Positions 1-20,822 of a stretch of 64,000 nucleotides of DNA are shown in pieces (the first letter of the stretch is position 1; the number at the start of each line of letters is the position of its first letter). The notes under the pieces are model-generated. The model saw only the letters and a list, made by a program, of their open reading frames with translations. It ran no database searches and was not told where the DNA came from. This stretch comes from Methylobacterium sp. PvR107. Lineage in GTDB: Bacteria; Pseudomonadota; Alphaproteobacteria; Rhizobiales; Beijerinckiaceae. The stretch covers positions 4,243,501-4,307,500 of the forward strand of contig NZ_JAFIBW010000001.1 of the NCBI RefSeq assembly GCF_017833295.1. The letters are read 5' to 3'. The position numbers and the translations under genes are program-made.

Positions 1-1
1 T

Positions 2-805
2 CATTTGGCGTCATCCAATTTTACTTCAGCTCATCTTCAATCTGCACATTTGGAAGGGAGTGATCTAACACTTGCTTGTTTGCGAGGCGCAAAGCTGTCC
101 GACGCGTATCTCAAATCAGCAAAGATGTTTGGAGCTGACGTAAGTGAGGCGACGTTTGAAGTCGAGCCGGACTCCCTGCCCGACGTGCGTTCAATGGACG
201 ACGTTAAAGGACTGAAGACTTTACAGTTTAGGAAAAACCCGGCGGCACTCCTTGCTCTTCGCAAAGCCTTCGACGAGGCGGGCATGCGCAGACAAGTTCG
301 AGAAATTACTTACGCCTTCAAAAAAGGGGAAAGAGAAAAGGAACTATCGGGAACCCCGGAAGGTCTATTGTGGTATTATTTAGTTGAGTTTACGAGCGAT
401 TGGGGAGCGGCGCCTTTCCGCCCGCTATTGATCATAGCCGTACTGCTTCCAGCCTTTTCTCTGATCTATTTCCTGCTTATGTTGAAAGCTTCCGAAGAAT
501 CGGGCGTTTGGCTTGTGCCTGACAAAGACCATATCACAAACGATAATGAAGACTGTAAGCCTGTTCTTCTGCAAAATAAAGGTTGGAAAACAATCTTCTA
601 TGCGGGCCATTTTAGTATTCTCTCGGCTTTCGCGATCGGTTGGAAAGACATAAACGTGGGTAATTGGATCAACAGACTCGCGCCTTTTGACTATACAATC
701 AAAGGTACCGGATGGGTGAAGTCACTATCCGGCCTTCAGTCATTGATCAGTGTCTACATGCTCGCGCTTTCATTGTTGGTCTATTTTGGAAGACCCTTTG
801 AATGA
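2..805 (+). CDS. Pentapeptide-repeat membrane protein, 5' end outside window
   Basis: The frame is already open at the left edge, so the start is probably upstream; a TTG at 5 is the first possible start inside. The first ~50 visible residues are A(D/N)LXX-type pentapeptide repeats (for example SAHLEGSDL, LRGAKLSDAYL), which fold as a right-handed beta-helix. The second half has two hydrophobic segments, around residues 139-160 and 240-262, and ends in YFGRPFE, a C-terminus I recognise from pentapeptide-repeat proteins with a channel-like membrane domain. The transported or bound partner is unknown. Base composition is AT-richer than the core genes to the right, which fits accessory DNA. Family call is fairly sure; function is not. 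Confidence 0.7.
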   Translation, partial: HLASSNFTSAHLQSAHLEGSDLTLACLRGAKLSDAYLKSAKMFGADVSEATFEVEPDSLPDVRSMDDVKGLKTLQFRKNPAALLALRKAFDEAGMRRQVREITYAFKKGEREKELSGTPEGLLWYYLVEFTSDWGAAPFRPLLIIAVLLPAFSLIYFLLMLKASEESGVWLVPDKDHITNDNEDCKPVLLQNKGWKTIFYAGHFSILSAFAIGWKDINVGNWINRLAPFDYTIKGTGWVKSLSGLQSLISVYMLALSLLVYFGRPFE

Positions 806-833
806 CCGATAAAGAGGTCGGAGGAGTGTTTCC

Positions 834-1250
834 ATGCGCATGACAACCAGAAACCTCATCGTATTTTGTCGGTTTGTCGCGACGTGTGTTAGTTTATGTC
901 TGACGACGACCGGCTTTGCGCAGTCTTCTTGCGACGGCAGATGGCGGATTGCTTTCTATCGAAGTTCTACGAGCGAAAATTTTCACTGTAGGCAAGAACT
1001 TTCCCACCCGGTTGAAGTGCGAGCAGGGAAAATAATCGATTTGGCGCCGAGCGAGAATTATTTTTTTCAGGGAAGCGTGAGGCAATGTGGGAAAGTTTCC
1101 TTCGTTATAACGCGGAGCGGCGAAATGGCGGTGGGTGATGGAGCTATAAATGGGCTTCATGCGAATGGGACTTGGGCGGTTCGACGGCCGCCAAATAGTA
1201 ATTGTGTAGGAACCTGGATAGGTGAGTATCGCGGACAGATTACTCGATAG
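834..1250 (+). CDS. Hypothetical secreted protein
   Basis: 138 residues, starting at an ATG preceded by a GGAGGAG ribosome-binding site. The first ~29 residues form a typical Sec signal peptide (basic start, hydrophobic core, cleavage near TGFAQ). The mature part is about 110 residues with four cysteines (CDG, HCRQ, QCGK, NCVG), suggesting two disulfides in the periplasm, and alternates glycine/beta-rich stretches ending in GTWIGEYRGQ. It lies 28 bases after the pentapeptide gene on the same strand, so the two may be co-transcribed. I do not recognise a named family. Confidence 0.65.
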   Translation: MRMTTRNLIVFCRFVATCVSLCLTTTGFAQSSCDGRWRIAFYRSSTSENFHCRQELSHPVEVRAGKIIDLAPSENYFFQGSVRQCGKVSFVITRSGEMAVGDGAINGLHANGTWAVRRPPNSNCVGTWIGEYRGQITR

Positions 1251-1575
1251 ATCGCCCCTGTAGTTCGGCCGGTCACAGTCCCCATCGTGTCCGCATCGTC
1301 CCGGGGGTCAGCTGCGAAACGCCATTCATATCGTTTCTCTCAGAAGTGCACTGCAACCGCATAAGAGCCACACCCACGGTCGCAAACGGTTTCGTACGGA
1401 TGGCAGGGGGCTTCGAACCGTTCCTGCCGTTCTTGAACAATACACTGCCGCGGTAGGAGGGGCACCGGGCCAACGGGACACCGATCACCAACCATCCGTC
1501 TATCCGACGGCCTACTTTGCCTCGAAGGTGCCACGGCCATGCGGTACCCATAGGATCAGCCAAACGGGAGAGAGA
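1251..1575. other. Intergenic, no gene seen
   Basis: 325 bases between the secreted protein and the broken ComEA-like gene. Open frames here are short and lack family resemblance. The last bases (GGGAGAGAGA just before 1576) make a ribosome-binding site for the following ATG. Confidence 0.5.
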
Positions 1576-2143
1576 ATGTTCCGATCCACGCTTGCCCTTA
1601 GCGCCGGACTAGCAGTCGTCGCAGTTGCCCTGACGTCGCTTTGGGTTGGTATCGGGCCACGTCCTCAGAGTGGACAGAAGAAGTGAACGGCAGCCGTTGT
1701 GCCCCTATCTGCACAGCAGCGGACTGGACTCGATGCGAAGGGGCAATCCATCCGCACCATCACGCCAGGATCCACTTCCAATCCGGGGATAATGGCAACG
1801 GCCCCTACAGGTCCATCCTCGCCGACTGTCCCGCCGATCACTCAAACTATAAAACCTGATGTGTCCACTGATTCGGGTTCTTCTGTGCGTCAAGCGGACA
1901 GCCCATCAATCGCGAGTACGGATTTAGGCACCACATCAGGGAGCGCGAATAATCCGTCGGCAACGACCGCTGGAACCATCGACCTGAACACAGCCTCAGT
2001 GGAACAGCTAAACGCCTTGGGGGCGGGAATGATCGGGAGAAGGATCATTGAGTTTCATCCCTACACGTCGGCTGAAGAACTCGTGACGAAGCGCGTCCTA
2101 AAGCGAGCGGATTACGAAGCTATTGAGAATGTGGTCATAGTTC
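1576..2143 (+). pseudogene. ComEA-like helix-hairpin-helix protein, in-frame stop and IS insertion
   Basis: An ATG at 1576 with an upstream GGGAGAGAG opens a frame encoding an N-terminal membrane anchor or signal (LALSAGLAVVAVALTSLWVG) and then RPQSGQKK, followed by a TGA at 1684. The same frame continues without shift through a low-complexity Thr/Ser/Pro linker into a helix-hairpin-helix domain (IDLNTASVEQLNAL...GRRIIE), the ComEA-type DNA-binding fold. IS66-A copy 1 then enters at 2144. The original 3' end survives beyond the element: joining 2143 to 7271 gives VVIVR followed by TAG at 7273-7275, so the insertion cost only the last codon. A GTG at 1699 could still start a cytoplasmic fragment that reads into the IS and gains about 38 foreign residues. 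Confidence 0.75.
2136..2143. repeat. Left target-site duplication of IS66-A copy 1
   Basis: CATAGTTC directly before the element terminus at 2144, repeated exactly at 7263-7270 after its right terminus. Eight bases is the normal duplication length for the IS66 family. Confidence 0.95.
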
Positions 2144-2225
2144 GTAAGCGCTCGTTGGCAGGCGCCTTGCGGGATATGATCCTGGACCTGGATACAGTGC
2201 TTTCGCGAAGGCCTGTATCCGCCCT

Positions 2226-2612
2226 ATGTCTGGACCTACGATCTCGCCCCATATCGTCGTAGCCGGCACGCGTCGCTCGTGGACGCGTGAGGAAAAGCGA
2301 GCGATCCTCGATGAGGCGCAGAGCACCACCGCGTCGATCTCGTCTGTGGCACGCCGCCATGGCCTGACGCCATCGCTCCTCTTTCGCTGGCGACGCGAGG
2401 CCTGGGATGAGGAGCGGGCGGCGGCCCTGCCGGTTCCGCCTCCCTTCGTACCGCTCGCACTGCCGGCACCGGTGGGGCTGCCGACGCGTGACCAGGGTGC
2501 GTCGGGTGGCGCCATCGAGGTGGAACTGGCCGACGGCCATCGGCTGCGTGCCGAAGCGGGTGCCGATCCGGCCTTGGTGCGGGATCTTCTCGCGGCGCTG
2601 CTGGATCGATGA
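2226..2612 (+). CDS. tnpA: IS66-family TnpA, copy 1
   Basis: 128 residues with an IS3/IS66-type helix-turn-helix near the N-terminus ([15 protein letters not shown], then [21 protein letters not shown]), expected to help bind the element ends. It starts 82 bases inside the left terminus and overlaps tnpB by four bases (ATGA), which implies translational coupling. The protein is identical to the TnpA of the second copy. In the IS66 family TnpA is an accessory protein of incompletely understood role, needed along with TnpB and TnpC. Confidence 0.93.
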
Positions 2613-2956
2613 TCCCCGTTCCCTCGGGCTCGCGCGTATGGCTGGCCACCGGCCACACGGACATGAGGAAGGGCTTCGACGGGCTCGCCGCGCTGGTGCA
2701 GGACCACCTGCACCGTGATCCGTTCTCCGGTCAGGCCTTCGTCTTCCGCGGCCGTGCGGGGCGGCTGATCAAGGTCTTGTGGTGGGACGGCCAGGGGCTG
2801 TGCCTGTTCTCGAAGCGGCTGGAGAGAGGCCGTTTCGTCTGGCCGGGAACTGCAGGGGCCGCGGCGGCGCTCTCGCCGGCTCAGCTCGCGATGCTGCTGG
2901 AGGGGATCGACTGGCGGGCGCCCGAGCGCACGGACCGGCCGCGCATCGCGGGCTGA
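2609..2956 (+). CDS. tnpB: IS66-family TnpB (Orf2), copy 1
   Basis: 115 residues, the usual size. It carries the signature of the IS66 Orf2 family: [21 protein letters not shown], then [27 protein letters not shown], and [11 protein letters not shown]. Its biochemical role in transposition is not established, though it is conserved in tnpABC-type IS66 elements. The start overlaps the stop of tnpA and 57 bases separate it from tnpC. Protein sequence is identical to that of the second copy at 9585-9932. Confidence 0.93.
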
Positions 2957-4023
2957 GAGACGCCGCGCCCGAAGGGGCTGGCGGAGCCGTCTTGGGCAAG
3001 CTAAGCTATTGGCATGGCTCTCGATCCTGCCTCGCTGCCGGATGACGTGGATGCGCTCAAACGCATGATCGTCGGCATGGCGAGGGACGCCGTTCATGCC
3101 AACACGCTGATCGAGAAGCTCCGCGGCGAACTCGCCAGGTTGAAGCGGGCGCAGTTCGGCGTCTCGTCCGAGAAGCTGCAAGCCCGCGTCGAGCAGCTCG
3201 AACTCGCCATCGAGGCCCTGGAGGTCGACGAGGCCGAACGCCTCGCGGCGGCCCCGGTCGTCGCCGAGGCGGTCGAGGCGGCAAGCCGAGGGCCGGGGCG
3301 CCGCCCCTTGCCCGAGCATCTGCCGCGCGAGACCGTCGCTCATCCCGGCCCCTGCGCCTGCCCGGCCTGCGGCGGTCGCCTGCGCCGGATCGGCGAGGAC
3401 GTGACGGAGAGCCTCGATTACGTGCCGGGCCGCTTCAAGGTGGTGCGGCACCTGCGCGAGGCCTTCTCCTGCCGAGCCTGCGAGACCGTGGTGCAGGCTC
3501 CAGCGCCCTACCACGCCATCGCCCGCGGCCGTGCCGGCCCCGGGTTGCTCGCGCATATCGCCGTGGCGAAGTTCGACGATCACCTGCCTCTGTATCGTCA
3601 GGCCGAGATCTATGCTCGGGACGGCGTCACGTTGCAGACCTCGACCCTGTCCGGCTGGATGGGCGCCACGGCCGCCGCGCTGGCTCCGCTGGTCGATCTC
3701 CTGCGGACGGAGGTGATCGCCGGGTCGGACGTCCTGCACGGTGACGATACGACGGTGCCGATCCTGGCGCCCGGGGCGGGGAAGACGAGAACTGGCCGGC
3801 TCTGGGCGTATGTGCGCGACGAGCGCCCCCACGGCGGAGCGCGACCGCCGGCGGCCGTGTTCTTCGCCTCGCCGGACCGAAAGGGCGAGCGTCTGTAGCG
3901 CGGCGATCTGGATGAGATGTCAGCGACAATCAGGATGAGTGACCGGTGTCGCGGCGGGTTGATGATGAGCGGGTCGATCGACCGGCGCAAGGTGGCGTCG
4001 GGTCAGGTTCGTGTCGCGGAGCG

Positions 4024-6410
<2,387 letters not shown>

Positions 6411-7262
6411 TCACCAGACGACGTGCCCCTGAAGGTCACGCCGACGCCGATCCGATGCCTCCGGTCGGGCTCTGCCCTCCTTGCGTCATCAGATCGGCGG
6501 TTCCTCTCATCTTGATTGACGCGCTGGTCTCATCCTGATTGCCGCGCTGCAAGCGTCCGCTCACGCATCTGGCGGCGTTCTCTGGCGTATTGCAGGCGGA
6601 TGGCTATGCCGGCTTCAACGGGCTCTACGAGGGTCGTCGACCAGGCGGCGCGCTGATCGAGGCCGCCTGCTGGGCGCACACCCGTCGCAAGTTCTTCGAT
6701 GTTCATGCCAGGACCGGCTCGGCGGTCGCCTTCGAGGCCCTGGACCGGATCGGCGTGATCTACGAGGTCGAGCGCTCCGTCAGCGGCAAGCCTCCCGACG
6801 AGCGCCTACGGCAGCGCCAGGCCCGATCACGACCGCTCGCAGCGGCCCTGAAGGCCTGGGCCGAGACGATCCTGCCGCAGCTCTCCGGCGGCTCCGATCT
6901 CGCCAAAGCGTTCCGCTACATGCTGGTGCGCTGGACGGCGCTGACCCGCGTCTTCGACGACGGGCGGATCGCGCTCGACAACAACCCAGCCGAGCGGGCG
7001 CTGCGGTCCGTCGCGATCGGGCGCAAGAACTATCTGTTCGCCGGCTCGGAGCGGGGCGCCGAGCGAGCCGCGGCGTTCTACACGCTGATCGAGACGGCCA
7101 AGCTCAACGGGCTCGACTCGGAGGCCTACCTGCGCGATGTGCTCACCCGCCTCGCCGATCATCCAGCCAAACGCCTGGCCGAACTCCTGCCCTGGAACTG
7201 GTCGCCGGTCGCCATTGGTGCTCAGGCCGCCTGATCAACCGGGCCGCTCGCCGAGCGCTTAC

Positions 7263-7270
7263 CATAGTTC
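7263..7270. repeat. Right target-site duplication of IS66-A copy 1
   Basis: CATAGTTC, an exact repeat of 2136-2143. The bases that follow (GGTAG) restore the final codon and stop of the helix-hairpin-helix gene when the element is removed. Confidence 0.95.
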
Positions 7271-7393
7271 GGTAGCTTTACAGAGTGATCGCTCAGACAG
7301 CCGCCGCATTTCTCGCTATCGGCGACAATCTCAATCACAATTAACACAACCTTGCACCGGTCCGGTGTATCCGTCCGGTGAAGGACGCGAGGG

Positions 7394-7633
7394 CTACGGT
7401 TTAGGCGGCAGCAGGTCTCTTTCCGCTCTGTGAGCGGCGATCCGCACCTCAATCTCGTCGATGCCGTCGCGGGTGAATGCGGGACACGCCTCGTCGCCCA
7501 AGCCGTGGACCCAGATCAGGCCGTCCTCAGGCTCCATGTCGACGATGATGTCGAACAGGGCGTCTTCGTCTGCTCCGAGGTCAGCGGCGACCCGGGCCAT
7601 CGTGAAGACGGCGCTCACATTGTTGCGCTGCAT
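7394..7633 (-). CDS. Small hypothetical protein
   Basis: 79 residues, acidic, with no membrane segment or signal peptide: VAADLGADEDALFDIIVDMEP, then EDGLIWVHGLGDEACPAFTRDGIDEI. Balanced composition and ordered hydrophobic spacing make this more likely a real gene than a chance frame. It sits alone between two IS clusters, about 120 bases after the end of the ComEA-like gene on the opposite strand. I do not recognise the family; similar short DEDALFDII-type proteins occur as uncharacterised Methylobacterium proteins, as far as I recall. Confidence 0.6.
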   Translation of the reverse strand: MQRNNVSAVFTMARVAADLGADEDALFDIIVDMEPEDGLIWVHGLGDEACPAFTRDGIDEIEVRIAAHRAERDLLPPKP

Positions 7634-7970
7634 CGGTTCAAGTCCGCCGCGGCATGATCGTCTCGTCAGGGATCAGGCTGGCTCGCGATAGGCTCAGGCG
7701 GCCTCGGCACACGGGCCGGTGGCCGAGCGCCAATGCCACGGAAGAAGCTCGTGCAGGCGCTGCGCCGGGTGATCGGCGATGCGGGTGAGCACGTCAGCGA
7801 GCCAAGCCTGCGGATCGATGCCGTTGAACTTCGCCGTCACAATCAGCGTCGCCATGGCGGCGGCCCGATCGGCGCCCCGCCGCGAGCCGGCAAACAGCCA
7901 CGCCTTGCGTCCAAGCGCAAAACCTCTCAGCGAACGCTCGGCGTAAGCGCTCGGCGAGCGGCCCTGTTGA

Positions 7971-9527
7971 TTAGGCGGCCTGAGCACCAGCGGTGACCGG
8001 CGACCAGTTCCAGGGCAGGAGTTCGGCCAGGCGTTTGGCTGGATGATCGGCGAGGCGGGTGAGCACGTCTCGCAAGTAGGCCTCCGGGTCGAGCCCGTTG
8101 AGCTTGGCCGTCTCGATCAGCGTGTAGAACGCCGCGGCTCGCTCGGCGCCGCGCTCCGAGCCGGCGAACAGGTAGTTCTTGCGCCCGATCGCGACGGACC
8201 GCAGCGCCCGCTCGGCCGGGTTGTTGTCAAGCGCGATCCGCCCGTCGTCGAAGACGCGGGTCAGCGCCGTCCAGCGCACCAGCATGTAGCGGAACGCCTT
8301 GGCGAGATCGGAGCCGCCGGAGAGCTGCGGCAGGATCGTCTCCGCCCAGGCCTTCAGGGCCGCTGCGAGCGGTTTGGATCGAGCTTGGCGCTGCCGCAGG
8401 CGCTCGTCGGGAGGCTTGCCGCTGACGGATCGCTCGACCTCGTAGATCGCGCCGATCCGTTCCAGGGCCTCGAAGGCGACCGCCGAGCCGGTCCTTGTAT
8501 GAACATCGAAGAACTTGCGACGGGTGTGCGCCCAGCAGGCGGCCTCGATCAACGCGCCGCCCGGGCGACGGCCCTCGTAGAGCCCGTTGAAGCCGGCATA
8601 GCCATCCGCCTGCAATACGCCGGAGAACGCCGCCAGATGCGTGAGCGGACGCTCGCCCTTCCGGTCCGGCGAGGCGAAGAACACGGCCGCCGGCGGACGC
8701 ACCCCACCGTGGGGGCGCTCGTCACGCACATACGCCCAGAGCCGGCCAGTTCTCGTCTTCCCCGCCCCGGGCGCCAGGATTGGCACCGTCGTATCATCAC
8801 CGTGCAGGACGTCCGACCCGGCGATCACCTCCGTGCGCAGGAGATCGGCCAGCGGGGCCAGCGCGGCGGCCGTGGCGCCCATCCAGCCGGACAGGGTCGA
8901 GGTCTGCAACGTGACGCCGTCCCGCGCATAGATCTCGGACTGACGATACAGGGGCAGGTGATCGTCGAACTTCGCCACAGCGATATGCGCGAGCAGCCCG
9001 GGGCCGGCACGGCCGCGGGCGATGGCGTGGTAGGGCGCTGGAGCCTGCACCACGGTCTCGCAGGCTCGGCAGGAGAAGGCCTCGCGCACGTGCCGCACCA
9101 CCTTGAAGCGGCCCGGCACGTAATCGAGGCTCTCCGTCACGTCCTCGCCGATCCGGCGCAGGCGACCGCCGCAGGCCGGGCAGGCGCAGGGGCCGGGATG
9201 AGCGACGGTCTCGCGCGGCAGATGCTCGGGCAAGGGGCGGCGCCCCGGCCCTCGGCTTGCCGCCTCGACCGCCTCGGCGACGACCGGGGCCGCCGCGAGG
9301 CGTTCGGCCTCGTCGACCTCCAGGGCCTCGATGGCGAGTTCGAGCTGCTCGACGCGGGCTTGCAGCTTCTCGGACGAGACGCCGAACTGCGCCCGCTTCA
9401 ACCTGGCGAGTTCGCCGCGGAGCTTCTCGATCAGCGTGTTGGCATGAACGGCGTCCCTCGCCATGCCGACGATCATGCGTTTGAGCGCATCCACGTCATC
9501 CGGCAGCGAGGCAGGATCGAGAGCCAT
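7971..9527 (-). CDS. tnpC: IS66-family TnpC transposase, copy 2, intact
   Basis: 518 residues. A coiled coil (about 28-75, LIEKLRGELARLKRAQFG) is followed by a zinc motif of two CxxC pairs (CPACGG ~116-121, CRAC ~153-156) and the DDE core with D244 or D245 (HGDDTTV), D308 (LQADGY) and E439 (DNNPAER). The C-terminus is the conserved LLPWNW region. It catalyses strand cleavage and transfer together with TnpA and TnpB. It is downstream of tnpB by 57 bases and is the only complete IS66-A TnpC in the window. Confidence 0.95.
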   Translation of the reverse strand: MALDPASLPDDVDALKRMIVGMARDAVHANTLIEKLRGELARLKRAQFGVSSEKLQARVEQLELAIEALEVDEAERLAAAPVVAEAVEAASRGPGRRPLPEHLPRETVAHPGPCACPACGGRLRRIGEDVTESLDYVPGRFKVVRHVREAFSCRACETVVQAPAPYHAIARGRAGPGLLAHIAVAKFDDHLPLYRQSEIYARDGVTLQTSTLSGWMGATAAALAPLADLLRTEVIAGSDVLHGDDTTVPILAPGAGKTRTGRLWAYVRDERPHGGVRPPAAVFFASPDRKGERPLTHLAAFSGVLQADGYAGFNGLYEGRRPGGALIEAACWAHTRRKFFDVHTRTGSAVAFEALERIGAIYEVERSVSGKPPDERLRQRQARSKPLAAALKAWAETILPQLSGGSDLAKAFRYMLVRWTALTRVFDDGRIALDNNPAERALRSVAIGRKNYLFAGSERGAERAAAFYTLIETAKLNGLDPEAYLRDVLTRLADHPAKRLAELLPWNWSPVTAGAQAA

Positions 9528-9584
9528 GCCAATAGCTTAGCTTGCCCAAGACGGCTCCGCCAGCCCCTTCGGGCGCGGCGTCTC

Positions 9585-9932
9585 TCAGCCCGCGATGCGC
9601 GGCCGGTCCGTGCGCTCGGGCGCCCGCCAGTCGATCCCCTCCAGCAGCATCGCGAGCTGAGCCGGCGAGAGCGCCGCCGCGGCCCCTGCAGTTCCCGGCC
9701 AGACGAAACGGCCTCTCTCCAGCCGCTTCGAGAACAGGCACAGCCCCTGGCCGTCCCACCACAAGACCTTGATCAGCCGCCCCGCACGGCCGCGGAAGAC
9801 GAAGGCCTGACCGGAGAACGGATCACGGTGCAGGTGGTCCTGCACCAGCGCGGCGAGCCCGTCGAAGCCCTTCCTCATGTCCGTGTGGCCGGTGGCCAGC
9901 CATACGCGCGAGCCCGAGGGAACGGGGATCAT
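9585..9932 (-). CDS. tnpB: IS66-family TnpB (Orf2), copy 2
   Basis: 115 residues, identical in sequence to the TnpB at 2609-2956, with the family signatures [13 protein letters not shown] and [18 protein letters not shown]. The ATG overlaps the tnpA stop by four bases. Role in transposition is conserved but mechanistically unclear. Confidence 0.93.
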
Positions 9933-10315
9933 CGATCCAGCAGCGCCGCGAGAAGATCCCGCACCAAGGCCGGATCGGCACCCGCTTCGGCACGCAGCCG
10001 ATGGCCGTCGGCCAGTTCCACCTCGATGGCGCCACCCGACGCACCCTGGTCACGCGTCGGCAGCCCCACCGGTGCCGGCAGTGCGAGCGGTACGAAGGGA
10101 GGCGGAACCGGCAGGGCCGCCGCCCGCTCCTCATCCCAGGCCTCGCGTCGCCAGCGAAAGAGGAGCGATGGCGTCAGGCCATGGCGGCGTGCCACAGACG
10201 AGATCGACGCGGTGGTGCTCTGCGCCTCATCGAGGATCGCTCGCTTTTCCTCACGCGTCCACGAGCGACGCGTGCCGGCTACGACGATATGGGGCGAGAT
10301 CGTAGGTCCAGACAT
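9929..10315 (-). CDS. tnpA: IS66-family TnpA, copy 2
   Basis: 128 residues identical to the TnpA at 2226-2612, with the N-terminal helix-turn-helix [19 protein letters not shown]. It begins 82 bases inside the element's end at 10397, the same offset as in copy 1. First gene of the tnpABC unit, coupled to tnpB by an ATGA overlap. Confidence 0.93.
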
Positions 10316-11820
10316 AGGGCGGATACAGGCCTTCGCGACAGCACTGTATCCAAGTCCAGGATCTTATCCCGCAAGGCGCCTGCCAACGAGCGCTTACCGC
10401 TCGGCGGCGTTGTTCGTCAGGCAGATCCGACCGTCCTCCAGGAAATGGGTGAAGCCGGGCCAGCGTCGCAGCAGGTAATCGATCGGCTCGGCCACAGCCG
10501 AGGATCGCGACAGGCGCGAGCGCTGCTCACGCAGCCACGTCTCCAGTTCGGCCGCGAGGGGCGCGCTCTCGGCACGACGCACCCGCAGACGTTCGTCGGC
10601 CGAGCGGCCGTTGATCCCGCGCTCGATCTCGAACACCTCGTCGATCCGCCGGACCGCCTCCAGCGCGATCGGCGAGATCACCGTAGCTGTCTTGCCCCGC
10701 CGTGCCTTCGCTGCGACGTCAGCGAGCACGAAGAACCCGCGGCGGGCATGCGCCCAGCAGAGCGCCGGGCGGATCGCGCCTTGCGGGCGCGTGGGATCGT
10801 AGAGGCGGTTGTAGCCGCTATAGGCATCCGCCTGCAGGATCCCGCTGTAACCGCGCAGATGAGCCTCGGGATGCACTCCGGCCCGGTTGCTTGAGGCGTA
10901 GAACAACGCCGCCGGCGGGTCCGGGCCGCCGAAGGGGCGGTCGTCACGGACATAGGTCCAGATCCGGCCGGTGACCGTCCGGCCCTTGGCCAGGATCGGC
11001 ACCGTGGTGTCGTCGCCGTGGAGCCGCCCGGCCGCCAGAACATGCGCCGCGATCAGCGCGTGCAGGGGCGCGAGCGCCGCCGTGCAGGCGCCGACCTGGT
11101 CGGCCAGCGTCGAGACCGATAGCGCGATCCCTTCCCGGGCGAAGCGCTCGCTCTGGCGGTTCAGCGGCTGATGCTGGCCGAACTTCTCGAACAGGATCGT
11201 CGCCAGGAGGTGAGGCCCGGCAAAGCCGCGCGGCGTGACGTGGAAGGGCGCGGGCGGCTGCGTGATCGTCTCGCAGGCCCGGCACGAGAAGCGCTCGCGC
11301 ACGGTCTGGATCACCTTCCAGGTCCGCGGGATCACCTCCAGCGTCTCGGTGATATCCTCGCCCAGCTTCGACAGCTTGGCCGATCCGCAGCAGGGGCAGA
11401 GCTCCGGCGCCGGGATGAGGATCCGCTCGCGCGGGAGATGGGCCGGGAACGGCTTGCGCGCGGGCGGCCTGCGGGGCGGCAGGCCGGCCCCCAGCGTGCG
11501 CGCCAGGGCAGCCTCGGCGGCGGCCGCCTGTTCCGTGGCCGTCGCCTCCAGCTCTTCCAGTTCGAGCTCCATCTGGTCGATGAGCCGCGCCGCGCGCTCC
11601 GAGCGCGTGCCGTAGAGCTCGCGCCGCAGCTTCTCGATCTGCAGCTTGAGATGCGCGATCAGCGCCGCACCGCTCGATCGGTCTGCCTCGGCGCTCAGCC
11701 GTGCGGCCCGTTCGGCCAGGATCATGGCGTGCGCGGCGGCAAGGTCGGAGGGTAGCGACTCGGGCGATGTGGTCACCGGAGCAGGGAATCACGCCCGCCC
11801 GGTCCTGCAAAGGGCCGACC

Positions 11821-12168
11821 TCACCCGACCGAGCTGGGCCGCCAGGTCTCCTGGGGATGACGCCAGTCGATGCCCGAGAGCAGGTAGCCCATCTGCGCCG
11901 ATGAGATCGTCACCACGCCGTCGGCTGGGCTCGGCCACAGGAAGCGACCCCGTTCCAACCTCTTCGTGAACAGGCACGCGCCCTGGCCGTCGTGCCAGAT
12001 GACCTTCAGCAGATCGCCGCGACGGCCGCGGAAGCAGAACAGATGCCCGCTCAAGGGATCGCGCTGGAGCACCTCCTGCACCTGCAGCGCGAGGCCGGGG
12101 AAGCCCTTGCGCATGTCGGTGTGGCCGGTCGCGAGCCAGACTCGCACGCCGGTGGGGACGGGGATCAT
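11821..12168 (-). CDS. tnpB: IS66-family TnpB (Orf2) of IS66-B
   Basis: 115 residues with the Orf2 signature [20 protein letters not shown], then [27 protein letters not shown]. It is clearly related to but distinct from the IS66-A TnpB (many substitutions in the middle and C-terminus), showing that IS66-B is a separate element rather than a third copy. It overlaps tnpA by four bases. Confidence 0.92.
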
Positions 12169-12578
12169 CGCTCCTCCAGGACCGACAGCACCCGGCGCAG
12201 CGCCTCGGCGTCGACGTCCCGATCGACCTTGAGACGCCGGCCACCGCCGAGATCGATCTCGATCACACCGGCCCGGCGGCGGCGACGCGGACCCTCGTCT
12301 GCAGCGGCCGATGCCGGCAGGGTTGGCACGCAGGGGGCAGAGGCCGGCTCAGGCTTTGTCACCACAGGCACGAACACCGGAGCCGGCTCGGCCCCGCCGA
12401 GCCGGCCCTCGCGGGCTTGCCGGCGCCACGTGAACAGCAATCCGAGCGCGATCCCATAGCGGCGCGCGACCGCACTCACCGATGTGTTGGCCACGAAAGA
12501 CGCCTCGACGATCCGCGCCTTCTCCTCGAAACTCCAGCGCCGCCGGCGCTCGACCCCGCCAAGAACCTCGACCCGCAT
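12165..12578 (-). CDS. tnpA: IS66-family TnpA of IS66-B
   Basis: 137 residues. N-terminal helix-turn-helix of the IS3/IS66 type ([17 protein letters not shown], then [21 protein letters not shown]), a Pro/Ala-rich linker, and a C-terminal segment ([20 protein letters not shown]) typical of longer IS66 TnpA proteins. First gene of the IS66-B transposition operon, coupled to tnpB. Confidence 0.92.
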
Positions 12579-12592
12579 CGCCCTGATCCGAT

Positions 12593-12616
12593 GACCTTAA
12601 CGCCAGCATTAAGGTC
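12593..12616. repeat. Perfect hairpin upstream of IS66-B tnpA
   Basis: GACCTTAA (12593-12600) and TTAAGGTC (12609-12616) form a perfect 8-bp stem with an 8-base loop, 15 bases upstream of the tnpA start. It may mark the outer region of IS66-B or be a regulatory site limiting transposase expression; there is no T-run. Confidence 0.5.
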
Positions 12617-13830: not shown

Positions 13831-14904
13831 CTATTCAGCATTGCCCTCGATCGGCAATGCCCTTTCAGGCAACACATGCTCCGGATTAAGTTTCCTATAG
13901 AGCAAGTTGGCAATCTCGTCTATTTGGGAGTCATGACGGTCCACCAGCATCCTAGCAAATACCTCAAGTTCCGCCATGTTTTCTTCACTTGAGTCGTCTA
14001 GATCGTCATTTCCAATTGCAAGTTGTCCGTCAATTTTAATATATCTCCTAGTCCCGCCAGGACGATTAAGCGTTTGATTAAGCATCATATAAGTCGACTC
14101 TGCTTGTCCGGAACTCAAAATGGACAAGAGAGGCACTCCACGTCTTGGACTGACCCAATTTACAAATCCCCAATTCTTTACCTCGTGGTACATGTATGGA
14201 CGCGACTCTCGACCTGTTCCGAGTGATATGATCGTTAGATCTTCTAATGGATAGCCAAGCGTATTGGAAAAATGAAGCCCTGCCAGGGCGGGATCATTCA
14301 TAAACACACCACCATCTATGAGTGTCCGGTATGATTTCTGATCATCATGTAGGATACGTGCAGGTGCGAAATAGGTCGGGGCGGCTGTAGATGCCCGCAC
14401 CACATCTTTCACAAGCATTCTAGACGTCGTGTTTTTCTCGTCATCAATGTTCGTCATAAAAACAGGTTTTCTAGTCTCTATGTCGTAAGCAGTGTAGACA
14501 ACGTTCGTTAACGCCTCTCCAATAGTGGCAGTGCGTAACGTGCGTTTTAATATTTCATCTAAGTATCCATGGTCGTATTTCTCGTCAATTATGTTGAGGA
14601 CGTCGCGAATTTTTTGGAAAAGCGTTCTTGGAAATATAGATCTGACGTGTTCTCTAAAGAAATCAACCACGTGATCCGGATGCATAACTGCTTCATTAGA
14701 ATCAGGCCCATTCGGGGTCGTAATTGCCGATGCAACGATAGCTCCCGCAGATGTTCCAACGACGAGATCAAAATACTCGTGAAGACCTCGAATGTTCTCC
14801 GGATCGATTTTTTTGATCCTTCTATATATTTCGGACAACACGAGAGCTGGAACGATGCCCCTCACGCCTCCCCCGTCGATCGTCAATATTATTCTGTGCG
14901 ACAT
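13831..14904 (-). CDS. Patatin-like phospholipase family protein
   Basis: 357 residues. All patatin catalytic elements are present: oxyanion loop DGGGVRG (residues 10-16), nucleophile elbow GTSAG with Ser52, and the dyad Asp197 in DGG. Patatins are serine acyl hydrolases acting on phospholipids or acylglycerols. The N-terminus starts straight at the catalytic fold with no signal peptide, so it is cytoplasmic, like cPLA2/CapV-type bacterial patatins. Upstream is GAGGAGA at good spacing before the ATG at 14904. The gene is AT-rich and lies in the island. No nucleotide cyclase or other CBASS component is nearby, so a defence role is only a possibility. Confidence 0.88.
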   Translation of the reverse strand: MSHRIILTIDGGGVRGIVPALVLSEIYRRIKKIDPENIRGLHEYFDLVVGTSAGAIVASAITTPNGPDSNEAVMHPDHVVDFFREHVRSIFPRTLFQKIRDVLNIIDEKYDHGYLDEILKRTLRTATIGEALTNVVYTAYDIETRKPVFMTNIDDEKNTTSRMLVKDVVRASTAAPTYFAPARILHDDQKSYRTLIDGGVFMNDPALAGLHFSNTLGYPLEDLTIISLGTGRESRPYMYHEVKNWGFVNWVSPRRGVPLLSILSSGQAESTYMMLNQTLNRPGGTRRYIKIDGQLAIGNDDLDDSSEENMAELEVFARMLVDRHDSQIDEIANLLYRKLNPEHVLPERALPIEGNAE

Positions 14905-15113: not shown

Positions 15114-16021
15114 CTAATTTAGCTCTGCTCCATATGTCCGTCCGGCGACTCCTGCCAGTCGGTGGTTCCAAGCTAACCGATCGTACCATTCCTTGGGCAC
15201 TTCAGTGATCCCGTATAACGCTCCCGCAATTTGCCCGGTCACAGCGGCAATCGTATCAGCATCATCCCCGAGGTTGAACGCTAGGAGGACTGCATCTCTG
15301 AAGGTGCTCGTCTCGCTCAGGCACCAAAGAGCAGCCTCAAGGGTATGGATGACGTAGCCGGAGGATCGGATTTCGGATCGTGCTTTCCCTTTGTACGAAC
15401 CATCCATAACCGCCTGAACGCCGGGACAAAATGGGCCATAGGACGCGGAGAGAACGTCCCTGAGCGACTTGCCACCTATGAGAGAGGCAAGGATGGTCGC
15501 GAGGGCTTCACAGGCGTCCACGGCTTCGGCCGCACCGTGTGTGTGGTGTAGCTTTGCCGCCGACTGGCATCCTTCAAGCGTTCGGGATCGTTCCAATAGC
15601 GTAGAGCCACCGGAGCGAGACGCATGATCGATCCGTTTCCCCCGGTCCTGGCATCGGTCGGTCCGGCTATAGGGTCGTCCGTGCGTCGGAACTGTTCCAG
15701 CGCATTGCGAGTGGTCATAACGATATCGAAGCATCGGCCCGTGCACGAGTTCTCACCGGCTTGATACCACCGGCAGAACCGTTCCATCAGGTCCCGTTCG
15801 TCCAACCCATCACAGGCTATCTGCGACTCAGCCAGACATAGCGCCATGGCTGTGTCGTCCGTCCATTGCCCGGCTTTCAGATCGAACGGTCCGCCACCCA
15901 CCATGTCATAGACCGGTGGCTCCGCATCCCTGACCTCGAATTCCAGGGTGGTTCCGAGAGCGTTCCCGACCGCAAGGCCTATGAACGCGCCCAAGGCTCG
16001 ATCCCGCACGGCTTCAGACAT
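15114..16021 (-). pseudogene. ADP-ribosylglycohydrolase (DraG-like), frameshifted at a dinucleotide repeat
   Basis: Two overlapping frames together encode a complete ~300-residue ADP-ribosylglycohydrolase. The first frame (from 16021) has ALGAFIGLAVGNALG and the metal-binding WTDDTAM (residues 53-59); it is in register up to SRRQSYTTH. The second frame supplies GAAEAVDACEALATILASL and the C-terminal metal site NLGDDADTIAAVTGQ. The switch lies in (GT)4G at 15537-15545; removing one GT unit restores one frame. As written, the first frame would end after about 181 residues. Such enzymes remove ADP-ribose from protein side chains or small molecules using two metal ions. The start overlaps the phosphatase stop by eight bases, so they form an operon. 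Confidence 0.85.
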
Positions 16022-16637
16022 TCAGCAGCCCTTGTTGGAGAACGTAGGCTTCCTGAGCGGGCGTCTCGATGGCTCCGGGCCTAGCCGCTCGGACTTGTTC
16101 AATCGCCTGTTTCGGGTCCGCGCCCATCATCACCATAAGCTTGGCCGCGATTATGCCTGCGCGCCCAAGACCCCCACGGCAATGTACGACCACCGACCCG
16201 CCCTGGTGAAACTGTTCGAGGATGCGCGGCCCTATCGTTCGCCAAGCTGCATCGAACGCTGGACCTGGAACACTCACGTCGGGAATGGGTGCATAGTGCC
16301 AAGCAAGGCCGGCATCCCTCACCGCTTCAGGCAAGCCTTTCACGGACAGTAGGTCGAACTCGTGGGCTTCCAGAAGGGTAAGCACCGACGAGGCTCCCCA
16401 ATCGCGGATCACGGCCACGTCCGCCTGTAGGTCTCTCTCCCACGCCCCACCGGCTGATGTGTCATCGACTTTACCGGGACAGAATGTGATCCCTAGGCGA
16501 GCCCCACTCTCTCCTACAGGTATGGTTCCGATCTGTAGCGGATGTGTAACGGAATTTCTGATCGTTCGCTCAGTCCTCGGTCGGCTGTGATTTCCGAAAA
16601 CAGCGTACCCGACGTGCCAAATATCGTCCTTCGCCAT
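16014..16637 (-). CDS. Dual-specificity / tyrosine phosphatase family protein
   Basis: 207 residues from the ATG at 16637, chosen because GGAGGAAAA lies just upstream; a longer frame to 16667 lacks such a site. The active-site loop is VHCRGGLGRAG with Cys153 and Arg159 (HCX5R), and Asp120 in PIPDVSVP is the likely general acid. The region WGASSVLTLLEAHEF matches the CDKN3/KAP-like branch of dual-specificity phosphatases. It overlaps the ADP-ribosylglycohydrolase start by eight bases, so the two are translationally coupled, and a shared nucleotide- or ADP-ribose-linked substrate is plausible but unproven. Confidence 0.87.
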   Translation of the reverse strand: MAKDDIWHVGYAVFGNHSRPRTERTIRNSVTHPLQIGTIPVGESGARLGITFCPGKVDDTSAGGAWERDLQADVAVIRDWGASSVLTLLEAHEFDLLSVKGLPEAVRDAGLAWHYAPIPDVSVPGPAFDAAWRTIGPRILEQFHQGGSVVVHCRGGLGRAGIIAAKLMVMMGADPKQAIEQVRAARPGAIETPAQEAYVLQQGLLNV

Positions 16638-16708
16638 TTTTCCTCCGATGCATTTATCATAACACACCGGAGCGACAGAGAAAATGGTAAGCTGTTATTA
16701 TAGTATGG

Positions 16709-17278
16709 CTATCGAGGCATCACGTGGGACGGAGCGAGACTGTTTAACAAGCGGTAGACCGAAGCCCGCGCCACCTTCAGTTCTCTTGCGATAGCAGTGG
16801 CGCCCATTCCCTGTGCAGCAAGAGCCTTTATCCGCTCAGGATCGATGCTCGGTTTGCGGCCCTTGTAGACACCTTCGGCCTTTGCCTTCGCTACGCCTTC
16901 CAGTTGCCGCTCTCGCCGTATGGCCGTTTCGAACTCCGCAAAAACCCCAAGCATCTGCAAAAAACAGCGTCCAGCGGCTGTGGACGTATCGACAGGCTGC
17001 TCGATCACCTTGAGGGAAACACCCTTCGCTTCGAGCCGCTTCACGATGGCTGCGAGGTCCCCAACTGAACGGGCTAACCGATCGATCCTCGTTACCGTTA
17101 TAGAGTCCCCAGCCCGCGCGAACTGTATGATTGTTTCCAGTTCGATTCGGCCTTCCAGCTTGGTGCCCGTCTGCGTCTCGGATCGGATGACATCACAACC
17201 TGAGTGACGCAAAGCCTCTTGCTGGATGGCCAAGCTCTGTGATGAACTGCTGACCCGGGCATAACCGTAGATAGCGAT
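16709..17278 (-). CDS. Serine recombinase (resolvase/invertase family), start codon reads ATC
   Basis: A small serine recombinase of about 190 residues. The conserved N-terminus IAIYGYARVSSSSQSLAIQQ, which holds the catalytic Ser after YARV, is encoded only if translation begins at 17278, where the codon is ATC instead of the usual ATG; GAGAGG lies five bases upstream at the right place. The first ordinary start is a TTG at 17233, after the catalytic Ser, which would give an inactive protein. The rest is intact: TRIDRLARSVGDLA, FAEFETAIRRERQLEG and a C-terminal helix-turn-helix (GMGATAIARELKVARASVYRLL). ATC can start weakly, so the gene is either poorly expressed or a fresh pseudogene. Confidence 0.8.
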   Translation of the reverse strand: MAIYGYARVSSSSQSLAIQQEALRHSGCDVIRSETQTGTKLEGRIELETIIQFARAGDSITVTRIDRLARSVGDLAAIVKRLEAKGVSLKVIEQPVDTSTAAGRCFLQMLGVFAEFETAIRRERQLEGVAKAKAEGVYKGRKPSIDPERIKALAAQGMGATAIARELKVARASVYRLLNSLAPSHVMPR

Positions 17279-17556: not shown

Positions 17557-18333
17557 ATGTCAGACTTGATGGATTATATTAGAGAATTTAGCTGCGACAG
17601 AGGCGAGTTGCCGCTGGTTCACACAACCGACAAGTTCACATTGCAGCTTATTAGAGATAGCAAGCGTCTTGAAACGAAAGAAGACTCCGTCTACAATGGC
17701 GAGAAATTGTTATACATGTTCTATGGTAGACCATCTTTCCGTGTAAACTCTAATATAAATCATACGTCAGCTTCTTTTTTTGCGCCAGTTTGTCTTATAT
17801 TCGATAGGGATCTATTGGGAAGCGCATATCGAATCATGCCGTTCGATACGGGGGCGCACCATGACGGTATGCTGAAAGAAACAATTCACAAGAGCATGGA
17901 TAGGAGTAGATTTGCTCTTGACGTAGATCCCGACTCTCCGATGAAGTTGATTAAATGCTTCTATGGAGACGAGATGTCTTACTTGGACAATAGACCAAGT
18001 CATGGCGTTGTTGATTTGGACGAATTGCAAAAATCTCAAAAGCATTATGTCGAGGCATACTACCATCTTGTTCACCATCGATCTAACTCAGCGTTAGACG
18101 AAAGGGTCAATGCTGTGGAAGTGCAATTCGATAAAGACATTGACATCGCTGGGCAGCTTCGAGCCGTGATCCTGCCGTCGCGCTTCTTTACTGCCGAAGT
18201 AATAACTAACATTGAAAACGAATTTGCCGCCACTGCTATCATGTACGATATGCCAGCAACTTATAAGCCTTCTGAGCTTATGAATACAATATATGAAAAA
18301 GTGAAGAACTTCATTGTAAGCAATAGAGTGTAG
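17557..18333 (+). CDS. Unrecognised protein, first gene of a two-gene island operon
   Basis: 258 residues, AT-rich with many rare codons for this host; GGAGGAATAAG precedes the ATG. No signal peptide or membrane segment. Notable blocks are LPLVHTTDKFTLQLIRDSKRLE, YMFYGRPSFRV, PVCLIFDRDLLGSAYRIMPFD and RVNAVEVQFDKDIDIAGQLRAVILP. The order (His-Thr in a strand, an aromatic-rich YxFYG strand, and a late VEV strand) is reminiscent of ADP-ribosyltransferase folds such as DarT or PARP-like proteins, but I cannot align a full motif and treat this as a weak inference. Four bases separate it from the next gene. Confidence 0.7.
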   Translation: MSDLMDYIREFSCDRGELPLVHTTDKFTLQLIRDSKRLETKEDSVYNGEKLLYMFYGRPSFRVNSNINHTSASFFAPVCLIFDRDLLGSAYRIMPFDTGAHHDGMLKETIHKSMDRSRFALDVDPDSPMKLIKCFYGDEMSYLDNRPSHGVVDLDELQKSQKHYVEAYYHLVHHRSNSALDERVNAVEVQFDKDIDIAGQLRAVILPSRFFTAEVITNIENEFAATAIMYDMPATYKPSELMNTIYEKVKNFIVSNRV

Positions 18334-18337
18334 ACAT

Positions 18338-19693
18338 ATGTCTGACGATATTAATGAATGCGACGCTCCAAAAAAACTTATCGGATACTTAGAAATAGAC
18401 ATAGATCCACCTACTTTTTTAATTCCGGTATTTCAGGATTTAGATAGTGATGCACTTTTGATTCAGGTCGCCGGAATAAACGATGAAATAATTTCGTTCG
18501 ACAAAGCGCCACCCATCATCCGAAAAATTGTCTATCCCGAAATTGTTATAAGGCGTATTGGTGACCCTGTTTTGTTTGGAATCTTTGCAGGCGGTTCGGC
18601 GCCCTTCTTTGGCAATAAGGAAGCTCTAAAAATTAAAATGAAAGAGCATCTTGATGTCGGCGAGTTAGAAATGACGCCTGCATTTGCGTCCAGCGTCGCG
18701 AAATACGTGGAGGATAAAAATGAGGTGACTCGTCTCAAAATGAAAATTTTTGCGGAGACTCCGGCAAATCTCGTGGCTACACGAAAGTTTTTTTTAGAAA
18801 ACAATATCATCCGGGAAGACCTATACGAGGCCTTTCCACAAGATCAGCATGAAATTATTGCGATGACTCGCATATCTATAAGTGGTCAGCAAATAAGCAT
18901 AAAAATTCCCGAAACGGCTTCTCAGCAAATCAGGAGAGCGTTGGGTAGTAGGGTTAGCGAAACTTTCAAAAAATTTACATCCCTTGATAGTGTGAGCGTA
19001 AGCTTTGAAGAAGATGCTCACGTCGAGTCTCAAATCATCCAGAGTATCAAGGCCGGACAATTCGATTTTGATCCGGCAATACTTGATCACCCGGAGTGCA
19101 GAAGTTATATATATTTTAAGTCGTCGATGATTCTAATCCCGGAAGCTGCCGAGCGTCATCTTAGTTACGGCCTATCTCAGCAGAACGCTTTGGATGAACT
19201 TTTGGATCCTTCCATAGGCATAAAGGCGATATCATTTAGTACCGCCCGCAGGATTGTTGGTGCGGAAAGCGTTTCGCTGGTCAGTGCAATGTTGTTCAGA
19301 TACATGATTTTCGGTTCATTGATGGATGCAACTCATAATACTCGATTCCGTTTACATGCTGCAATAGTCTCTGTTGATCTGTCAAGACTGCCGGAGGACT
19401 ATGCTCAAAAACTTGGGTCAATATATCGAAGGGACCTTGAGCCAAACGAGATTTCAAAGACGTCTTTATTGTCACTCTCAATGATAAGTTTTGCATGTAG
19501 AAGACTCGAACTTGAATTGCAGCGCGTCGGTCCGGCGATTAATATGCGCGTCAACTCGTATTATTCGCCTGCTAGGATGAACAGGAGCTTCCTTGAGGCC
19601 TGGAGTCTGTATTGCAAAGATGAATTCCAGACTGGCCACGTCGACGAATTAACGAAGTTCCTTCCACTTGGATATGACATGCTTGATGGGTGA
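18338..19693 (+). CDS. Unrecognised 451-residue protein, second gene of island operon
   Basis: Starts four bases after the stop of the preceding gene, so the two are certainly co-transcribed. No membrane segment or signal peptide. The N-terminal third is beta-rich (KKLIGYLEIDIDPPTFLIPV, LLIQVAGINDEIISF, GIFAGGSAPFFG); the rest looks mainly helical, with charged helices such as NKEALKIKMKEHLDVGELEM and SLSMISFACRRLELELQRVG. I see no nuclease, ATPase or helix-turn-helix motif. AT-rich codon use like its partner points to joint horizontal acquisition. A role as partner, inhibitor or sensor for the first protein is inference only. Confidence 0.7.
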   Translation: MSDDINECDAPKKLIGYLEIDIDPPTFLIPVFQDLDSDALLIQVAGINDEIISFDKAPPIIRKIVYPEIVIRRIGDPVLFGIFAGGSAPFFGNKEALKIKMKEHLDVGELEMTPAFASSVAKYVEDKNEVTRLKMKIFAETPANLVATRKFFLENNIIREDLYEAFPQDQHEIIAMTRISISGQQISIKIPETASQQIRRALGSRVSETFKKFTSLDSVSVSFEEDAHVESQIIQSIKAGQFDFDPAILDHPECRSYIYFKSSMILIPEAAERHLSYGLSQQNALDELLDPSIGIKAISFSTARRIVGAESVSLVSAMLFRYMIFGSLMDATHNTRFRLHAAIVSVDLSRLPEDYAQKLGSIYRRDLEPNEISKTSLLSLSMISFACRRLELELQRVGPAINMRVNSYYSPARMNRSFLEAWSLYCKDEFQTGHVDELTKFLPLGYDMLDG

Positions 19694-19706: not shown

Positions 19707-20183
19707 CTAATATCGTATGAACATTGGCTCAAGCTTCAACCATGCTCCGTCCGCTATTCCACCAGTGGTATTATAACGAGGGAAGCGGTCTATCGCGTCC
19801 GTCAGCATTTCGAGGGTGGGTGTTTCATATCGCCGACCCACAGATGCAACACGATGGCCGGTGATGGCGTCGCGTAGACGTTCCTCGATGCCAGCTCCTA
19901 AGGCACGGGTCTTCCATGTGTGCCGCCAGCCGTGATTGGGATCGACGCCCGGATCGAGGTTGATGGCCGCACGCACCCACTTGCCGACCTTGTGCCCTCT
20001 CAGTTCCCCCGGAGTAGTCAGGGACCGCTTTCCGTGTCGAGTAGGTTCGAAGAACAGCTGACCGGGGCCGCACGCTTCCACGAACGCCCGAAAGCCCTGT
20101 TCAATGAGATGGGAGTGGATCGGGACGGTTCGGGGTTCGGCCGTCTTCGTTGCCCTGTGAGGCTTGATAACGGCCTCTATCTC
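19707..20183 (-). pseudogene. Phage-type integrase (tyrosine recombinase), C-terminal fragment
   Basis: About 159 codons of open frame with no N-terminal half: an in-frame TAG sits at 20184-20186. The fragment reads AVIKPHRATKTAEPRTVPIH, HLIEQGF, and then the C-terminal catalytic part HGWRHTWKTRALGAGI (HxxR), GHRVASVGRRYE (His and the nucleophile Tyr). The first catalytic Arg box is only partly present. It ends 14 bases from the stop of the convergent unknown gene at 19693, and its lost 5' half abuts the histidine phosphatase gene. This looks like a scar of the recombinase that once moved part of this island. Confidence 0.82.
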
Positions 20184-20237: not shown

Positions 20238-20822
20238 ATGTCCGCACTGACCGTCATGTTCATCCGTCACGCTGAGAAGCCGGGCGGTAGCTTTCCTGGC
20301 GATGGCACTACGGCTGACGGCATCACCGACGATAAGTCGCTTGTGATCCGGGGATGGCAAAGGGCGGGGGCTTGGGCGGCCTTATTCGGGTCGGACCTGT
20401 CCAGCGCCGACTATCCCCGCCCCAACGTCATCTATGCGGCCAAGCCTGAGCCGGTGACGAAGAAGGCAAAGTTCAGCCACCGTCCGTTCGAAACAGCGAC
20501 ACCTTTGGCCGAACGCCTACAGCTCCGTCTTAAAGCTGACTATGAGGTCTCACAGGAACACGAGCTGGAGGAAGAGATTCGGAAGCTGACCGGGGTCGTG
20601 ATCGTCTTCTGGGAGCACAAGGCCATCGTTACGGATCTGATCCCCGCCTTGAAGGGTGATCAGATCATTCCCGGCGTTCCTACCAAGTGGGATTCGGACC
20701 GTTTTGACGTGGCGCTCCGGTTCGATAGGGCTGTTCCCGACACTCCGTGGTCATTTCGCCAACTCTCTCCGCGCCTGATGAGTGGGGACAGCGACGCACC
20801 CTTTTCCAAGCTTGAGGGCTGA
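20238..20822 (+). CDS. Histidine phosphatase family protein
   Basis: 194 residues with the N-terminal phosphohistidine motif FIRHAEK (His11 is the nucleophile) of the RHG/phosphoglycerate-mutase superfamily, and a second block VIVFWEHKAIVTDLIPAL supplying the usual second His. It is short and diverged, with HRPFETATPLAERLQL matching the ERxxxTA region. No signal peptide. It follows the integrase remnant and precedes an MgtC-like gene by 15 bases. Substrate unknown; together with the phosphatase and ADP-ribosylglycohydrolase it makes a third hydrolase in the island. Confidence 0.82.
   Translation: MSALTVMFIRHAEKPGGSFPGDGTTADGITDDKSLVIRGWQRAGAWAALFGSDLSSADYPRPNVIYAAKPEPVTKKAKFSHRPFETATPLAERLQLRLKADYEVSQEHELEEEIRKLTGVVIVFWEHKAIVTDLIPALKGDQIIPGVPTKWDSDRFDVALRFDRAVPDTPWSFRQLSPRLMSGDSDAPFSKLEG

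Follow-up and report, generated by a model that had tools for sequence, protein, structure and literature searches.

Among the closest described systems are DarTG, in which the ADP-ribosyltransferase (ART) DarT1 or DarT2 is paired with a NADAR or DarG macrodomain antitoxin, and CmdTAC, which, in the accessible part of its description, is an anti-phage system with an ART effector, an mRNA ADP-ribosyltransferase, together with an antitoxin and a chaperone. Here we describe a two-gene operon in a stretch of 64,000 nucleotides from Methylobacterium sp. PvR107 (contig NZ_JAFIBW010000001.1, positions 4,243,501 to 4,307,500; the whole stretch is referred to as the window). Like DarTG, the operon couples a gene for a protein of predicted DarT-like fold (gene 1), with the same order of His/Thr and a late Glu, to an adjacent partner (gene 2). 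It differs from DarTG in that gene 1 lies outside the Pfam and PADLOC models, in that sequence searches of Pfam, PADLOC, and NCBIfam matched window gene 2 to neither a macrodomain nor NADAR, and in that the partner has a C-terminal part, or tail, that is swapped between members of the family. CmdTAC has three genes, including the chaperone, whereas here there are two genes and the variable part is fused to the partner.

Gene 2 is a dedicated partner of gene 1, and its N-terminal domain is inherited along with gene 1. Of 88 loci that were examined (designated by L numbers), 83 had this domain next to gene 1, 78 of them by profile and 5 by weaker evidence, in a compact conserved two-gene operon such as is found in type II toxin-antitoxin modules. 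Recurrent pairing of this kind had been proposed as a check in the preliminary description of this DNA, which was made from the sequence alone and whose interpretation was supported in part. The scan was a six-frame search with an N-domain profile (E ≤ 1e-3), which detected the domain in 65/70, 7/11, and 6/7 loci of the respective locus sets. The profile consisted of 54 N-domain rows, 51 of which came from L002 to L071, and among the 18 loci that lay outside it (L081 to L091 and L115 to L121) the domain was found in 13. Profile scores were weak (11 to 18 bits) in L065, L085, L086, L089, and L119, but four of these five had BLAST matches (E ≤ 3e-23) to detected N-domains. In two held-out tests, profiles made from one half of the N-domains each recovered 45 of 46 partners; the sole miss, L121, is a gene-1 fragment. 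The partner gene mostly overlapped the end of gene 1 or began no more than about 60 bases away, and the domain has a loose signature of nearly invariant residues (P30, Q43, F54, and G75). Distances between gene-1 proteins were correlated with those between N-domains across 51 loci (Mantel r, 0.641; reached by 0 of 2000 permutations), a correlation that linked inheritance would be expected to give and that does not prove binding.

The N-terminal domain had no convincing match among PDB sequences (best E, 0.2), and no NACHT, NB-ARC, or LRR match was found in it when 40 members were scanned singly in Pfam; AAA- and NACHT-like matches fell in C-terminal parts. As the preliminary description had stated, neither window gene was assigned to a recognized family: gene 1 had no match in Pfam or PADLOC at E ≤ 1, and gene 2 had none in Pfam at cutoff, in PADLOC (E ≤ 1), or in NCBIfam, its one subthreshold Pfam match being DUF6680 (E, 0.17). 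A direct tblastn search of plasmids with gene 2 gave no match.

The idea that gene 1 is a partnerless gene was rejected, with only L006 (decayed), L022 (gene 1 fused, no gene 2), L037, L066, and L088 (a remnant) lacking the N-domain. L006 retains a 49-residue stretch that is 67% identical to the tail of L007. The operon was present in 8 of 397 genomes of the family, source genome counted, and this patchy distribution ruled out a core housekeeping gene. In L022 (8442 to 10804), a TIR gene is followed by an N terminus that by eye resembles pentapeptide repeats, fused to a full gene-1 domain, so that gene 1 occurs there in another arrangement. In L088 (4893 to 5324 and 6497 to 10552), the gene-1 remnant lies on a Paraburkholderia plasmid, beside an operon annotated as CBASS. 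In L018, L031, and L121, gene 1 is split into two or three pieces, while the partner N-domain was still found. Large conserved genes, which we take to be NrdJ-like in L006 and L007 and LepA-like in L045 and L056, lie upstream of the operon, and positions downstream of such genes are perhaps preferred insertion places.

The constant N-terminal domain of gene 2 is combined with an interchangeable C-terminal part. Among 66 aligned partners (L006, L022, L037, L056, L063, L066, and L068 were left out), which ranged from 299 to 1316 amino acids, the C-terminal parts fell into 37 BLAST clusters; the window sequence was entered twice and added no cluster. Tails differed between members with closely related gene 1 proteins. 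The gene 1 proteins of L038 and L040 are 63% identical, and a RelA/SpoT tail in the former corresponds to an unrelated family in the latter; the tails of L024 and L039 are likewise unrelated (gene 1, 51% identical). A recognizable counterpart for the tail was found in at least 14 of the 66 members, a lower bound because 40 of the 66 were scanned singly in Pfam and the all-member scans give the best 25 of 61, 64, and 80 families. These tails were DnaA (L015), DnaA-like ATPases (L024, by profile, and L046, by BLAST cluster and member count), FtsZ (L065), HsdR (L053), an SNF2/DrmD-like helicase (L047), peroxiredoxin (L013), Lys/Orn monooxygenase (L023), RelA/SpoT (L038), GcrA (L050), RES (L058), FGE-sulfatase (L070), the DarG C-terminal domain (L060, the family member that carries part of DarTG itself), and a copy of gene 1 (L049). 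TPR repeats were present in the tails of L032 and L067. The tails of L002 and L116 have, by eye, Trp-rich repeated stretches, with a weak similarity of 22% over 324 residues. In L028 (6679 to 8406), gene 2 is followed by a gene whose product is similar to the gene-2 tail (29% over 311 residues) and which is perhaps a source of the tail or a second partner.

Trees and alignments show the DnaA and peroxiredoxin tails to be copies taken from the same genome or its close relatives, with active-site residues lost. L015, from Magnetospirillum aberrantis, encodes its native DnaA 37 nucleotides upstream of gene 1 and, as the tail of the partner, a further DnaA that is 82% identical to the native one. 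Placed in a tree alongside 11 native DnaAs from the genus, this tail clusters with the native copy of its own genome and one other (99/97). Of the 339 columns in which the 11 natives are invariant, the copy breaks 27, compared with 0 to 4 for natives left out in turn. Its Walker-A glycine is changed (GLGKT to GLSKT), and in the DHT motif, which contacts the DnaA box, Asp and His are replaced, the only two changes across native residues 364 to 465. In the record of this strain (M. aberrantis SpK), a single contig carries both the native and the fused DnaA, and misassembly was rejected as a general cause; L013, L023, L038, and L065 are metagenome-assembled genomes and are weaker in this respect when taken alone. 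The peroxiredoxin tail of L013 is 85% identical to the enzyme of the same genome and is its sister in the tree (99/97), on a branch of 0.16 versus 0.005. Its TPVC motif, which contains the peroxidatic cysteine and was kept in 9 of 9 natives compared, has become TLVS, with loss of that cysteine. Natives break 1 to 7 of the 83 invariant columns and this copy 7, a count within the native range, so the signal lies in which columns changed and not in how many.

Signs of disarming were also seen in L038, L049, and L060. In the RelA/SpoT tail of L038, the HD of the hydrolase motif is kept, the following ED is lost, and the synthetase part no longer has its conserved GYRS stretch; we take these to be the catalytic motifs. 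The gene-1-like tail of L049 has lost the family-invariant H22, D181, and R183 and kept E188, and the tail of L060 comprises only the C-terminal part of DarG (profile positions 156 to 338 of 338). The FtsZ tail of L065, which is 71 to 77% identical to the FtsZ of its own genome, depending on the stretch, breaks 52 of 311 invariant columns versus 0 to 11 for 13 natives; the changes include a glycine of the first nucleotide loop. In the tree this tail has a long branch and falls outside its own genus.

By its predicted fold and its conserved residues, gene 1 is a DarT-like ART, as the preliminary description had suggested from the order of motifs. The structural model has an ART fold, and its nearest folds are DarTs that modify nucleic acids. 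H22 and E188 were invariant in an alignment of 83 rows (L018, L022, L031, L037, L066, L068, and the partial P0005 were left out). In DarT1, H17 and T19 contact the NAD ribose and the late Glu is E152, according to the accessible part of PMC11543638. We infer from the order of strands that H22-T23-T24 and E188 correspond to these residues. The absence of a Pfam or PADLOC family for gene 1 means that no DarT family model was matched there, and a profile of the 83 sequences found no DarT chain among PDB sequences. Relatives of gene 1 numbered 19 in the protein database and occupied 70 loci in genomes and viral contigs. Plasmid records with matches numbered 11, 11, and 12 for three queries (one of the 12, Bradyrhizobium sp. 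172, was left out of the loci), and phage records gave no matches to two gene-1 queries.

We give slightly better than even credence to the proposal that gene 1 is an ART effector that is restrained by a partner carrying an integrated decoy and is set off by phage proteins; the trigger, the toxicity, and the role in defense are part of what is proposed. The N-terminal domain of gene 2 would keep gene 1 inactive, and the C-terminal part would be a decoy resembling something that phages attack. Once the decoy was bound, modified, or degraded by a phage protein, gene 1 would be released and would then ADP-ribosylate a cellular or phage target so that growth stops. The window operon would have the same chassis with a tail that imitates an unrecognized protein. 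As for counterparts of the tails, FtsZ is attacked by a phage protein and DnaA by a cryptic-prophage protein, according to the accessible parts of PMC10714956 and PMC4776307, respectively.

Some of the tails are dead or altered host proteins, as a harmless sponge would be, and gene 2 could in principle be a substrate-mimic antitoxin, with gene 1 as a toxin modifying one particular host protein and gene 2 offering a dead version of that protein in its place, no phage trigger being needed. This seems unlikely, because gene 1 proteins that are 60 to 63% identical carry unrelated C termini, so that near-identical enzymes would need different substrates. Furthermore, HsdR, DarG, and gene-1 copies would be poor targets for growth inhibition, and DarTs that modify nucleic acids would not be expected as the nearest folds. 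It is quite unlikely that the operon is an ordinary toxin-antitoxin pair kept for plasmid or island maintenance, in which the C-terminal parts of the antitoxin are fast-evolving or adventitious fusions: 37 C-terminal clusters, the capture of whole host proteins, and the loss of active sites are unexpected of neutral fusions, although the compact low-GC operon, its patchy distribution, and its plasmid records would suit such a pair. The least probable alternative is a targeting module that brings the ART to the origin, the Z-ring, or a restriction complex for modification on command, for although the FtsZ copy retains the C-terminal peptide to which division proteins bind and the DnaA copy most of domain I, the latter lacks two of the DHT residues and would be unable to reach the origin via DNA binding.

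Several observations weigh against an ART controlled by a decoy. Visible motifs are intact in the Lys/Orn monooxygenase tail of L023 (64 to 65% identical to the native enzyme), the HsdR tail of L053, the SNF2 helicase tail of L047, and the ATPase tails of L024 and L046, and the GcrA tail of L050 retains its DNA-binding stretch, where it is 74% identical. Disarming is therefore not a feature of every tail, and some may act. For the tail of the window itself, the source genome gave no counterpart (best E, 0.0066, to a stretch interrupted by a stop), 5.8 billion proteins gave no relatives except P0022 and P0023, and PDB sequences gave no match; with no host counterpart, the decoy idea for the window rests on the family. 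The gene-2 type of the window had no relatives among 243 candidate stretches of viral contigs.

The two window genes are separated by the four bases ACAT and are AT rich (GC content of 0.42 for gene 1 and 0.43 for gene 2, versus 0.66 for the window), with lengths, spacing, and composition exactly as first described. Gene 1 is present in a single copy in the source genome, a single contig of 6.36 Mb. The claims made in the preliminary description about the surroundings fared less evenly (Table 1). The serine recombinase on one side was confirmed, and the truncated integrase on the other matched no Pfam family. An ADP-ribosylglycohydrolase is present but not intact, being split over two overlapping frames and thus apparently broken, and only one of two supposed phosphatases was recognized. 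The patatin-like phospholipase matched PADLOC effector models that presumably belong to CBASS. Near-identical copies of transposase-like genes were seen by eye on both strands at positions 1 to 12600. Rfam gave no match over 12.5 to 22.5 kb, and a search of plasmids in near mode gave none over 12.7 to 22.0 kb.

Table 1. Features of the operon and its surroundings in the window
Feature	Position	Strand	Description
Gene 1	17557-18333	+	ORF, 258 aa, ATG start; predicted DarT-like ADP-ribosyltransferase fold, predicted effector
H22-T23-T24	17620..17628	+	Putative counterpart, by order, of DarT1 H17/T19
E188	18118..18120	+	Candidate catalytic glutamate; opens model strand 188-191
Gene 2	18338-19693	+	ORF, 451 aa, ATG start; predicted sensor/restraint partner
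Gene 2 N-terminal conserved chassis domain	18338..18787	+	~Residues 1-150; from family alignment and held-out profile test
Gene 2 C-terminal variable part	18830..19690	+	Residues 165-451; orphan type
Serine resolvase	16709-17233	-	Pfam Resolvase, 6.7e-30
DSP/PTP-type phosphatase	16014-16667	-	Pfam
ADP-ribosylglycohydrolase	15114-15746 and 15476-16021	-	Half of PF03747 in each frame (15114-16021 overall)
Patatin-like phospholipase	13831-14904	-	PADLOC "Effector / Phospholipase" models, PDLC00758, 1.6e-56
ORF	19707-20081	-	Resembles integrase C terminus by eye only; PDB sequences give just CutA (0.88)
ORF	20238-20822		Supposed phosphatase; no Pfam family

Whatever the trigger, one operon family that captures and disables host DnaA and peroxiredoxin calls for an explanation. 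If the proposed decoy mechanism is correct, the tails would be a readable list of proteins attacked by phages, which would perhaps add GcrA, peroxiredoxin, a siderophore-type monooxygenase, and RelA/SpoT to the phage targets, and the orphan tail of the window would imitate an unrecognized one. The family also makes possible a direct test, i.e., whether phage specificity follows the swapped C-terminal part.

CapRel and other phage-sensing toxin-antitoxin fusions place a toxin under a phage-sensing domain within a single fused protein, with an enzyme other than that found here, and to our knowledge the CapRel-type sensor is not a copy of a host protein. No bacterial system with interchangeable host-derived decoys was found in the open-access literature, and one may be reported elsewhere, in preprints or in the subscription journals that mostly lay outside this scope; the accessible part of PMC9503650 describes no such system. 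The operon family may be a variant of effector-plus-sensor immunity. In bNACHT25, an NLR-related protein that senses phage through DnaJ, a host protein is also the sensing point, but the chassis is a NACHT protein and, as far as the accessible description goes, the host protein is apparently not fused as a copy. Plant NLR-ID receptors, in what is available of their description, share with this family a conserved chassis and a variable integrated host-protein domain; they are eukaryotic NB-ARC/LRR receptors, unlike the chassis described here. Whether the family is a bacterial counterpart of these receptors, a mobile ART with a restraint chassis that has repeatedly captured host genes, some of them disabled, as baits, we regard as an even call. 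Like the proposed system, PARIS, Ronin, EcoprrI-PrrC, and Panoptes hold an effector under a sensor that detects phage counter-defense, but in the accessible part of PMC12409349 each of these guard or decoy systems has one fixed sensor and no swapped copies of host proteins, compared with the dozens of exchangeable tails found here.
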